From: Shewanella benthica
GTDB lineage: Bacteria > Pseudomonadota > Gammaproteobacteria > Enterobacterales > Shewanellaceae
Length of the DNA: 64,000 nt
Assembly: GCA_023284085.1 (NCBI GenBank)
Contig: JAKVHY010000001.1
Location: 1-64,000, forward strand
Direction: 5' to 3'
Shown here: positions 29,367 through 32,657 of the stretch, piece after piece
Numbering within the stretch: position 1 is the first letter of the stretch
How the letters are laid out: every line of letters begins with the position of its first letter
Notes under the pieces: generated by a model
The model's database searches: none
Told to the model about the DNA's origin: nothing
Seen by the model: the letters and a program-made list of their open reading frames with translations, nothing else
Position numbers and translations under genes: made by a program

Positions 29367-29903
29367 ATGCAACTATTAATGTTAAAGCGGTTAAGCCTGC
29401 TGGTTAAAATTGGCCTGGTACTGAGCATACTATTTCAAGCGAATGCTCTCTCTGCGGCCCCAAACCTGGATCTCAGTGTCCAGGACGCAGACGGGCGCTC
29501 CTATGTATTATCTCAATTCTCTGGAGAGCTGATTTATATCGATTTTTGGGCATCTTGGTGTGGCCCATGTCGAAAGTCTTTCCCCTGGATGAATGAGATG
29601 CATCATAAGTATGCTGATCAGGGGCTTAAGATCATTGCCATCAACTTAGACAATGACATATCACTCGCCCGTCAGTTTCTCGGGCAAATTTCTGCCGACT
29701 TCACTATCGCCTATGATCCCGATACTCAGGTGGCAGAACAATTCGATATCTTGGGGATGCCGAGCAGCTACCTGTTCAACAGACAAGGTAAATTAGTCGC
29801 TAAACACCTGGGGTTCTATGCGGAGCATAAGGCGGACTATGAAGCCGAAATTTTACACTATCTTAAACAAGCAAAGCCGGAACAGAGCACAGACAAGCTG
29901 TGA
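29367..29903 (+). CDS. TlpA-like periplasmic thiol-disulfide oxidoreductase
   Basis: A 178-residue thioredoxin-fold protein. Signal peptide about 1-31 (ends ALSAA); active site WASWCGPCRKSF with Cys65 and Cys68; cis-proline region LGMPSSYLF. It should act in the periplasm as a reductant of disulfides or of cysteine-bearing partners. It heads a four-gene run (TlpA, DUF4266, DUF3570, ApbE). The next gene's product ends in Cys-Gly-Cys, an obvious candidate partner. Confidence 0.88.
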   Translation: MQLLMLKRLSLLVKIGLVLSILFQANALSAAPNLDLSVQDADGRSYVLSQFSGELIYIDFWASWCGPCRKSFPWMNEMHHKYADQGLKIIAINLDNDISLARQFLGQISADFTIAYDPDTQVAEQFDILGMPSSYLFNRQGKLVAKHLGFYAEHKADYEAEILHYLKQAKPEQSTDKL

Positions 29904-29949
29904 GTAGCATGAGTATGTGTGGGGGAGTTCATCAAATTAGAGGCGAGAG

Positions 29950-30183
29950 ATGATGATATTCGGGACTGAACTGATTAGAAGCCTAGCATTTTTGGTGTGT
30001 TTCTCTTTGACTGCCTGTGCGGGTTTAGGCGTGGAACCTTGGCAGCGGGATCAGTTTGCCCGTGAAGACATGGCGCTGGACAGTGAAAAACTGGATCTGA
30101 CTTTGGACGATCATATCTATTTCAGTAAAGAGGGCACCAGTGGCGGCCGAGCGCTCGCCGGGGGCGGCTGTGGCTGCAACTAA
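29950..30183 (+). CDS. small DUF4266-type lipoprotein with C-terminal Cys-Gly-Cys-Asn
   Basis: A 77-residue lipoprotein: signal peptide with lipobox LTAC (Cys23), then an acidic middle (QREDMALDSEKLDLTLDDH-like composition), a HIYFSKEGTSGG stretch and the end GGGCGCN (Cys74, Cys76). I recognise it as DUF4266, whose Gly-rich Cys tail is its hallmark; the function is unknown. The tail could bind metal, be modified, or be a redox partner of the TlpA protein encoded upstream. The DUF3570 gene overlaps its last codons. Confidence 0.8.
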   Translation: MMIFGTELIRSLAFLVCFSLTACAGLGVEPWQRDQFAREDMALDSEKLDLTLDDHIYFSKEGTSGGRALAGGGCGCN

Positions 30184-31630
30184 AACGGTCAATAAGTCAA
30201 AAGCACGCACTGGAACCGGGACAAAAATCGGTGCAAGTCTTGGTATCAGTGCGAGTGAGCCTTCGATTGCCGAAGCGTTATCGATTGCCAGCTTTGCGCT
30301 ACTGAGCATGACGAGCTCGGTGGCCATTGCCGCTCAAAGAGACTCTGTAGCCGAAAATCCCATCGGCAGAGACACTCAATTCGCCGCTGTCATCACTACA
30401 GATGAAGCCGTCACCTCAGATACTGATGAGACAGATCCAGCTGAAATAGACGCCGCCTTACTCTATTATCTGGAGCAGGACAGGGTGACGGTAGCCGAGG
30501 GGATCTTCAATCTTAAACTCCCCGTAGGCGACAAGCGGGTTTACGAAGGCAAGTTGGTGCTAGATACCTTGACTGGCTCCTCGGCCAATGGCGCCGTGCC
30601 CCAAGATGAACGCCAGACTTTTACCCGTCCGTCAGGCAATGGCGAATACAATATCGATTCAGGTAACACCCCTTTAGATGACACCTTCAAAGACACTCGA
30701 GTACAACTCAGTGGCAACTGGGCCGAGATATGGTCGCCTGACTGGAGCAGTAACCATGGGCTCTATCTGTCGAGAGAATATGACTACACTTCCATGGGCA
30801 TTAATTCGGCACTGGAACGCTCGTTTAACAAGAGTAACACTCAGCTTTCATTGGGGATGGCCTATTACTATGATCTGGTCGATCCTGTGGGAGGACGGCC
30901 TGTGGCCATGAGTAAGATGGTGTTTCGGGATGATTTTGACTCCCAAACCGAGTTCAGAACTGAATTTGATAAGACCCGCCAGATAGCGAGTACCGATAAA
31001 CAGACAGTGGATCTCAGCGTCGGTTTAACCCAGATCATCAATCGGTATATGCTAGTGCAGCTCAGCTATAACCTGTCTTCTTTGAAAGGATATATGACCG
31101 ACCCCTACAAGGTGCTCAGCCTTGTTGATGCGTCAGGAACCAGTGAGGCATATCTTTATGAGAGTCGACCCGATGAGCGTCTCAAGCAGAGCTTTTATCT
31201 GTTCAGTAAATATGCATTATCCACTGGGGTGACCGATCTGGCTTATCGTTATAGTCATGATGACTGGGGCGTGTCCTCACATACCTTCGAGACCCGTTAT
31301 AGGTACAATTTCACCTCAACTTTTTTTGGCCAACTGCACCTGAGGTATTATCGACAAGAAGCGGCCAGCTTTTATCGGGCTTTTCTTAATTCGGGTGAGG
31401 AACTCCCTGAGTTTGCATCGGCAGATTATCGTATTGGTAATATGAATGCCTATACCTTAGGCATAAAAATTGGTCACAGTTTAGTTGATGGCACTAAGGC
31501 CAGCTATCGCCTCGAGTATTATCAACAAGATCCCTATTCTAATGGAGAACAAGCCACTGGCCAGCTGGCTCACCATGAGTTATATCCAAGCATTAAGGCG
31601 ATCATTTTTCAGCTAGGATTGTCATTTTAA
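30170..31630 (+). CDS. DUF3570 predicted outer-membrane beta-barrel with ApbE-type flavinylation-like motif
   Basis: About 486 residues from the GTG at 30170, chosen because a G-rich Shine-Dalgarno-like run precedes it and because it overlaps the DUF4266 stop by 14 bases; a GTG at 30140 is an alternative. A hydrophobic segment (about 35-56) may be a signal/anchor. The rest has repeated aromatic, alternating strands and ends in FQLGLSF, fitting an outer-membrane barrel. The segment DTLTGSS (about 132-138; bases 30563-30583) is one residue away from the D-x-x-[ST]-G-A-[ST] site at which ApbE attaches FMN. ApbE is encoded next. Function is unestablished. Confidence 0.78.
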   Translation: MAATKTVNKSKARTGTGTKIGASLGISASEPSIAEALSIASFALLSMTSSVAIAAQRDSVAENPIGRDTQFAAVITTDEAVTSDTDETDPAEIDAALLYYLEQDRVTVAEGIFNLKLPVGDKRVYEGKLVLDTLTGSSANGAVPQDERQTFTRPSGNGEYNIDSGNTPLDDTFKDTRVQLSGNWAEIWSPDWSSNHGLYLSREYDYTSMGINSALERSFNKSNTQLSLGMAYYYDLVDPVGGRPVAMSKMVFRDDFDSQTEFRTEFDKTRQIASTDKQTVDLSVGLTQIINRYMLVQLSYNLSSLKGYMTDPYKVLSLVDASGTSEAYLYESRPDERLKQSFYLFSKYALSTGVTDLAYRYSHDDWGVSSHTFETRYRYNFTSTFFGQLHLRYYRQEAASFYRAFLNSGEELPEFASADYRIGNMNAYTLGIKIGHSLVDGTKASYRLEYYQQDPYSNGEQATGQLAHHELYPSIKAIIFQLGLSF

Positions 31631-31687
31631 TGGTATCTATTGCGCTGAATGGCTATGGCCTTCATTCTTATGATGTGGTCAGTCTTG

Positions 31688-31739
31688 TGATGATGAGCAC
31701 TGATGATGAGCACTGATGATGAGCACTGATGATGAGTGA
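31688..31739 (+). repeat. 13-bp tandem repeat, four copies
   Basis: The unit TGATGATGAGCAC occurs three times exactly and a fourth time ending GTGA. It lies between the DUF3570 stop and the apbE ribosome site. Copy number could change by slippage and alter the spacing or mRNA folding between these genes. Confidence 0.9.
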
Positions 31740-31769
31740 CGGGATGCCCCATCAAGAGGAAAATTGTCT

Positions 31770-32657
31770 ATGAGCGAAGAGCTGTCATTGGCCGCCACTT
31801 CTTGGGGGCATCTGGCGAGCTTTAATGCCATGGCCAGTCGGTGTGAGGTGCTTATACGCACAGCCGACAGAGCGCAGGCCTATATCATGGCCAACCAGGT
31901 TTTGCAGGAAACACGGCGCATAGAGCAAAAGTACAGTCGCTTCAATAATAGCAGTTCGCTCAGCAAGCTCAATGCCACTGCCGGCGCCTGGCAGAATATC
32001 GACGCAGAAACCTCGGCGCTCTTGGGTTTCTCCAAGCAGTGTTTCGACTTAAGTGATGGTATGTTCGATATTACGGCGGGACCCATATTAACACTCTGGA
32101 CCTTTGGCCCAGATGCCAATGTGCCCACTTCTGCATCTATCGGGAGGGCACTTAAAAATGTCGGCTTTGACAAGCTAAGCATAGAGGCGTCGCGGTTACA
32201 CCTCCCCCGTGGCATGAGCCTGGATTTCGGTGGCATCGCCAAGGAGTATGCCTGTGACAGGGCGGCGAGCCTGTTGACACTTGATTATCCTCACATACCC
32301 GCCCTGGTTAATCTGGGCGGTGATATAGCCTGTGCCTCGATGGTCGATAAGCCCTGGCAGGTGGGAATAGAAGACCCTAGCGAATTGGACAATGCCACTC
32401 GGACAATCAGCTTAATTGGTGGCGGGCTGGCTACCAGCGGTCACACCCGGCGTTATCTACTCGATGAGGGGAAGCGATATGGGCACATACTGAACCTTAA
32501 CACAGGCTATCCGGTGGAACGGGCCCCTTTGTCTGTGACCGTTATGGCCGCCAATTGTTTGGTGGCAGGCATGTTATCCACCATAGCCATGTTAAAAGGC
32601 GCCAATGCGCAGGCCTTTATGGCCTCTCAGGATGTCGATTTTCATATCTGCCGCTAA
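31770..32657 (+). CDS. apbE: FAD:protein FMN transferase (ApbE family)
   Basis: A 295-residue enzyme that moves FMN from FAD to a Ser/Thr of a target protein. Family segments include DITAGPILTLWTFG, SLDFGGIAKEYACDRA, ALVNLGGDIAC and TSGHTRRYLLDEGKRYGHILN. The ATG at 31770 follows AGAGGA. Unlike most ApbE proteins it shows no signal peptide or lipobox, so it may act in the cytoplasm before export of its substrate. Its neighbour, the DUF3570 protein, carries a motif resembling the acceptor site, and no Nqr or Rnf genes are present in the window. Confidence 0.9.
   Translation: MSEELSLAATSWGHLASFNAMASRCEVLIRTADRAQAYIMANQVLQETRRIEQKYSRFNNSSSLSKLNATAGAWQNIDAETSALLGFSKQCFDLSDGMFDITAGPILTLWTFGPDANVPTSASIGRALKNVGFDKLSIEASRLHLPRGMSLDFGGIAKEYACDRAASLLTLDYPHIPALVNLGGDIACASMVDKPWQVGIEDPSELDNATRTISLIGGGLATSGHTRRYLLDEGKRYGHILNLNTGYPVERAPLSVTVMAANCLVAGMLSTIAMLKGANAQAFMASQDVDFHICR

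Follow-up and report, generated by a model that had tools for sequence, protein, structure and literature searches.

A probable DUF3570 flavinylation cluster of Shewanella benthica with a predicted outer-membrane barrel and an ApbE that lacks a recognizable signal peptide

Proteins of the family DUF3570 have been found in gene clusters containing an orphan apbE, whose product transfers flavin mononucleotide (FMN) from flavin adenine dinucleotide (FAD) to proteins, and the family member of Chlorobium luteolum, which has two flavinylation sites, was reported to carry a covalent flavin when co-expressed with its cognate ApbE (Meheust et al., 2021; PMC8238504). The consulted sections of the same study describe clusters of ApbE, DUF3570, a thioredoxin-like protein and DUF4266 that include DsbD or, in 316 cases, lack it; they record VIT1 in published clusters (25) and term the function of the module uncertain. 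A 2024 study in mSystems models other flavinylated domains, and the word DUF3570 does not appear in its main text (PMC11334425). Here we describe a further member of this module in a stretch of 64,000 nucleotides of Shewanella benthica (positions 1 to 64,000 of contig JAKVHY010000001.1, assembly GCA_023284085.1), to which we refer as the window. Since the module and the flavinylation of DUF3570 are already published, the window contributes one more member, the copy of a deep-sea Shewanella. It shares with the published system the same four genes, with DUF3570 as the presumed substrate of ApbE, a DUF4266 protein with a CXC tail and a thioredoxin, and it differs from it by a Ser in place of an Ala in the flavinylation motif, by its single site and by the lack of an adjacent DsbD gene, which sets it apart from the DsbD-fed subtype of flavinylation systems. 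The barrel fold of DUF3570 ('beta-barrel' giving 0 matches), ApbEs without a signal peptide and an exchange in their active site, which are the subjects of our analysis, are not mentioned in the sections of PMC8238504 that we drew on.

The four genes follow each other on the forward strand in the order given in a preliminary description of this DNA, which open reading frames and Pfam matches have confirmed. The cluster starts with a TlpA/ResA-like thioredoxin (29367..29903; Redoxin, E 1.7e-21), which contains a WCGPC active site and a hydrophobic N-terminal signal region, followed by the small DUF4266 lipoprotein (29950..30183; PF14086, E 2.3e-20) with a lipobox-like LTAC and the C-terminal sequence GGGCGCN. 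The DUF3570 protein, a predicted barrel (30170..31630; PF12094, E 4.9e-164), has two candidate start codons, GTG at 30140 and GTG at 30170, and its frame overlaps the 3' end of the DUF4266 gene. It contains a hydrophobic signal-like stretch at about 30278-30334 and the ApbE target motif DTLTGSS, encoded exactly where it had been placed (30563..30583), with Ser83 in mature numbering (codon 30581-30583) as the predicted FMN acceptor. A 13-base tandem repeat of 3.8 copies with 100% matches (31688..31736) lies between this gene and that of the ApbE-type FAD:protein FMN transferase (31770..32657; PF02424, E 3.9e-68), which probably starts at the ATG at 31770, a TTG at 31764 being possible. Scans for promoters and terminators contributed nothing to the interpretation. 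The reading offered in the preliminary description is supported in part; it had overlooked that this ApbE contains neither a visible signal peptide nor the canonical metal-ligand Asp.

Both properties distinguish the enzyme from the canonical exported ApbE/Ftp proteins of E. coli, V. cholerae and S. enterica, with which it shares the family and the active-site residues Ser, His and Thr. By hydropathy, its open frame shows no signal-like stretch ahead of the conserved domain, and a count of such stretches, defined as an uncharged N-terminal 10-mer with a mean hydropathy >= 1.8, identified 7 cases among 132 ApbEs of the module, none of which is a convincing signal peptide by eye. The same count was positive in 154 of 155 TlpAs, in 150 of 159 DUF4266 proteins and in 142 of 159 DUF3570 proteins, where it overlooked the signal region of the window protein and of some relatives owing to N-terminal insertions; one locus (L005; L and G numbers denote loci and genomes) fell below the score cut and was read directly. 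The three other ApbEs of the window genome carry clear N-terminal signal sequences. An ApbE that likewise lacks a signal peptide is that acting on the Klebsiella fumarate reductase, whose target, according to the consulted part of a review, is a soluble intracellular enzyme, whereas the presumed target in the window has a signal-like stretch.

The second property concerns the metal site. In published descriptions of canonical enzymes, the conserved residues in the catalytic centre of V. cholerae ApbE are Ser241, His257 and Asp285 (PMC12052999), all three of which fit an aligned ApbE chain with an offset of 16, and metal 1 of E. coli Ftp is held by the side and main chain of Asp280, the main chain of Thr166 and by Thr284, while in apo forms Asp283 also acts as a ligand (PMC4767422). 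The position equivalent to Asp280 (Asp285 in V. cholerae) is occupied by Gly in all 131 readable ApbEs of the module, including that of the window (Gly267; 32568..32570), the unreadable one being an apbE split by a stop codon (L074). Conversely, the residue four positions past the site of Thr166, which is a Gly in canonical ApbEs (Gly170 in E. coli Ftp, as counted on the alignment), is a Glu in 132/132 (Glu159 in the window; 32244..32246). The active-site Ser and His are kept in 131/131 of these proteins and the Thr in 129/131, the two others containing a Ser. Neither exchange occurs in any of 58 comparison ApbEs, where the Gly170-equivalent is a Gly in all and the Asp is found in 54, the remaining four showing two Glu, apparently by one-residue misalignments, and two Gln. 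Some of the 132 ApbEs are not independent of each other, since they were taken from a named and an unnamed set, which overlap (L110 and L045, for example, are from the same genome). The existence of an ApbE class that combines the absent signal peptide with the Asp/Gly exchange is thus strongly indicated at the level of sequence, and we found no printed report of it; as far as its accessible sections extend, the open-access literature on ApbE, flavinylation and flavinylated beta-barrels contains no report of the exchange. From the absent signal peptide and the exchanged residues we infer that the enzyme acts in the cytosol and that its metal carboxylate has been relocated, the new Glu taking over the role of the lost Asp.

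The assignment of DUF3570 as the target of this enzyme, already published in 2021, appears well supported by the conservation of its motif and the frequent presence of a neighbouring ApbE. In an alignment of 36 sequences, comprising the window protein and 35 relatives of its type (class A), D77, L79, G81 and S83 of the motif, whose conservation had been named as a check, are invariant, and position 82 is occupied by Ala in 33 and by Ser in 3 cases. Given this alignment, the motif is no chance match. In the mature window protein, DTLTGSS is the sole occurrence of [ST]G[AS][ST], and it reads TGSS compared to the [ST]GA[ST] of the known system, with the Asp, the Gly and the acceptor Ser present. 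Our named set of 80 loci, kept from 409 relatives, was found partly by the motif pattern and is thus biased towards it; it contains TGSS in four cases and TGPS in one, in all five with an adjacent ApbE. Profile surveys of samples from the order and the phylum are without this bias, and there the motif Gly is present in 55/55 DUF3570 proteins with an adjacent ApbE and in 8/24 without, several of the latter being located at contig ends (L063, L188, L197). In four survey rows (L187, L191, L192, L195) the recorded motif differs from a direct reading, with the Gly present in both. The occurrence of a DNA pattern for the motif at 3 sites in the window, with 0.67 expected, says little, and it is the protein alignment that carries the argument. 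Some relatives contain two or three motifs (L086, L089). A separate observation concerns the DUF3570 protein of L089 (4004-5281), whose three SGAS motifs are clustered, suggesting a possible multi-flavin barrel, and that of L184 (3966-6701), which belongs to a 912-residue open frame, roughly double the usual size, next to a DUF4266 protein ending in GCGCY.

The preliminary description had further predicted DUF3570 to be an outer-membrane barrel, which is now supported by structure prediction. AlphaFold, run with the window protein and 35 relatives, models a 16-strand barrel with a mean predicted local distance difference test value (pLDDT) of 90.5 and a predicted template modelling score (pTM) of 0.84, residues 1-31 being disordered, and in fold searches the matches listed were all outer-membrane barrels. 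We did not retain any single known barrel as the closest one, and we claim the barrel class only, since the matches are spread over FadL, OmpG, CymA, PelB, BamA and others. As in outer-membrane proteins, long loops alternate with short turns in the model, a rule that places the motif on strand 3, at its extracellular end. Along this strand, the even positions hold hydrophobic residues that vary more, whereas those at odd positions, including K73, D77, G81 and S83, are less hydrophobic and more conserved, and from this alternation the side chain of Ser83 should face the lumen. The prediction of a barrel with a flavin site in its lumen near the cell surface is strong at the level of sequence and model, and no printed report of it was found. 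A cysteine is absent from all 36 class A DUF3570 sequences, that of the window included.

The distribution of the genes links the enzyme type to the barrel type. DUF3570 is patchy; within the order, 76 of the 295 genomes possess it, and in the sample of the phylum 29 of 398 do. Its nearest named relative, with 97% identity, is that of S. benthica KT99 (L103), and the cluster also occurs in a laboratory strain, Shewanella sp. ANA-3 (L123). All four genes are found together in 75 of the 80 named loci. The expectation that apbE would always accompany DUF3570 did not hold strictly, as it is not adjacent in three of these loci (L106, L108, L139), whose genomes all carry an ApbE with the described exchange elsewhere: in one beside another DUF3570 copy and in two unlinked. 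The unlinked, equally signal-less enzymes of the L106 and L108 genomes (L291, 6811-7710; L292, 6462-7388) have nqrA, nqrB and the gene of an Nramp metal transporter as neighbours, and the surrounding 6 kb or so contain no DUF3570. When all ApbEs were read in 14 genomes, the exchanged type was found in 7/7 with a class A barrel and in 0/7 with only a class C barrel (Fisher p 2.9e-4, an optimistic value, since the genomes are related and were chosen rather than drawn). A different argument, that the lack of an Nqr or Rnf gene in the window leaves no alternative target, turned out to be weak and was rejected: there is no FMN_bind gene (NqrC/RnfG type) in the window, and the genome holds six elsewhere, with one within about 3 kb of each of its three other ApbEs.

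The class C loci (L087, L088, L090-L100, L190, L194, L196, L198-L200) have in common with the window a TlpA, a DUF4266 protein with the same tail and a DUF3570 protein that, in the one case modelled by AlphaFold, is likewise predicted as a 16-strand barrel. They differ by the absence of an adjacent exchanged ApbE, the loss of the motif Gly in 15/19 cases (it is kept in L098, L100, L199 and L200), while the acceptor Ser is kept in all survey rows, and by their neighbours: the inspected loci encode, among others, an HZS_alpha protein bearing two CXXCH motifs as well as an OMP_myx_plus protein. In six loci, which were chosen because an ApbE shared the contig, an exported canonical ApbE is adjacent (L233), 10-12 kb away (L230, L231, L232, L234) or at a distance of about 23 kb (L236/L237). 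In ten class C genomes taken without that choice, it is located 13-16 kb off in three (G105, G203, G234), on the same contig but at a great distance in three (G014, G059, G272) and on other contigs in four (G016, G159, G194, G215). The use of class C as an ApbE-free control was thus rejected, and these loci provide no evidence that loss of the motif follows loss of the enzyme. Class C is a different arrangement rather than a group devoid of ApbE. One of its loci (L230, 4046-17853) combines the DUF3570 gene with an SH3-type protein, an OMP protein, HZS_alpha with its two CXXCH motifs and the exported ApbE.

The thiol branch that had been proposed to accompany the barrel is present, in the form of a TlpA with a WCGPC site and a DUF4266 protein with a near-invariant Cys-containing tail. 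The latter reads GCGC[NYK] in 79/79 survey loci and GCGCN in 79/80 named loci, the odd one looking like a false hit, and across all classes few features of the module are as constant as the CGC tail. In Erv2p, a C-terminal Cys-Gly-Cys tail is said to relay electrons between thiols and flavin. We propose that the flexible tail of DUF4266 acts between such partners, although here it would belong to a separate lipoprotein and the flavin would be an FMN covalently bound to a barrel, and we do not claim any sequence relation between the two. A DsbD gene adjoins the cluster in nine loci, of class B and partly of class A (two checked by Pfam). The class B clusters (L081-L085), in which the DUF4266 tail ends a longer open frame, adjoin DsbD, VWA and TadF-like genes (one member of each tested).

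Taken together, we consider it fairly probable that a cytosolic ApbE loads the DUF3570 barrel with FMN and that a thiol relay connects it to an acceptor at the surface. In such a mechanism, the signal-less ApbE would move FMN from FAD to Ser83 of DUF3570 in the cytosol prior to export. The FMN-bearing chain would then cross the inner membrane and, on reaching the outer membrane, adopt its 16-strand barrel fold, the cofactor residing inside the lumen near the outer mouth. In the periplasm, a DsbD-type protein encoded elsewhere would feed TlpA, and the flexible Gly-rich Cys-Gly-Cys tail of DUF4266 would relay electrons between TlpA and the flavin. By this route, electrons might travel between thiols of the periplasm and a surface acceptor, for which iron would be the leading candidate; the cytosolic timing of flavinylation, the route from TlpA via the DUF4266 tail and FMN to the outside, its direction and the acceptor are all putative. 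The most far-reaching version, which combines a separate cytosolic ApbE class with its metal-ligand carboxylate on the KG/KE helix instead of in the Asp loop, flavinylation before export and a haem-free thiol-to-flavin conduit across the outer membrane, is tentative and, as a whole, rather unlikely. Several points weigh against the proposed mechanism. We know of no precedent for the export of a chain that already bears FMN. The absence of a signal peptide is based on a hydropathy count, not on SignalP, and an enzyme that has lost the metal-ligand Asp may have a changed or weak activity. The TGSS of the window differs from the tested TGAS, and FMN on the window protein is a prediction from its sequence. 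The exchanged ApbEs next to nqrA, nqrB and Nramp make other targets possible, since they do not adjoin DUF3570. There is no DsbD in the window, and both DsbD_TM genes that the genome contains are located on other contigs; the electron step from thiol to flavin is argued by analogy, and the tail need not serve the flavin, because class C keeps it despite the frequent loss of the motif Gly.

We also weighed three alternatives. If the barrel were flavinylated in the periplasm by another exported ApbE, with the local enzyme being inactive or acting on a cytosolic target, the missing metal-ligand Asp, the three signal-bearing ApbEs in the window genome and the exported canonical enzymes in the vicinity of the six chosen class C loci would find a ready explanation. 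The local enzyme has, however, kept its active-site Ser, His and Thr, its type follows the class A barrel in all seven genomes including the two unlinked cases and is absent from the seven with class C only, and the three other ApbEs have FMN_bind neighbours of their own, which makes this alternative quite improbable to us. It is less remote, albeit still unlikely, that the thiol arm would be an assembly or metal-handling factor instead of a relay, with TlpA reducing the CGC tail for a purpose unrelated to the flavin. Such independence would account for TlpA and the same-tailed DUF4266 in class C, where the flavin motif of the barrel is mostly degenerate, yet a barrel without cysteine offers no target to a disulfide catalyst, and the electron supplier DsbD adjoins nine loci. 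Compatible with the mechanism proposed above, and an appreciable possibility despite falling short of being probable, is a role of the module in the acquisition of iron or another metal, where reduction of Fe(III) at the surface would supply the uptake of Fe(II). Such a role is suggested by VIT1 in the published clusters (PMC8238504), by the Nramp genes next to the unlinked exchanged ApbEs and by five class A loci with a cupredoxin and a multi-pass protein that by eye resembles an FTR1-type permease, whereas these latter neighbours are missing at most class A loci and, from open reading frames and Pfam, no transporter gene was identified adjoining the cluster in the window. Iron handling at the cell surface is our leading guess for the function of the module.

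If flavinylation by the cytosolic ApbE and the proposed relay were to prove true, an outer-membrane protein would be loaded with a covalent cofactor prior to its export and a barrel would pass electrons without haem. Since the position of the flavin in the lumen is predicted and the enzyme is signal-less, a direct test is possible. The Asp/Gly exchange, which is strict in the compared sequences, provides a marker for the enzyme class and a handle on metal binding in ApbE by mutagenesis.

The wider neighbourhood of class A clusters contains two further recurrent elements. In the mentioned five loci (L043, L050, L051, L054, L057), the conserved cupredoxin gene and that of the multi-pass membrane protein are located near the cluster, and in the one member of each that was tested, the multi-pass protein gave no match in Pfam or NCBIfam. 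The second element is a two-component pair, with the kinase family found in 18 loci and the regulator in 16, whose best NCBIfam matches, below the cut-off for the members tested, are QseC and PmrA.

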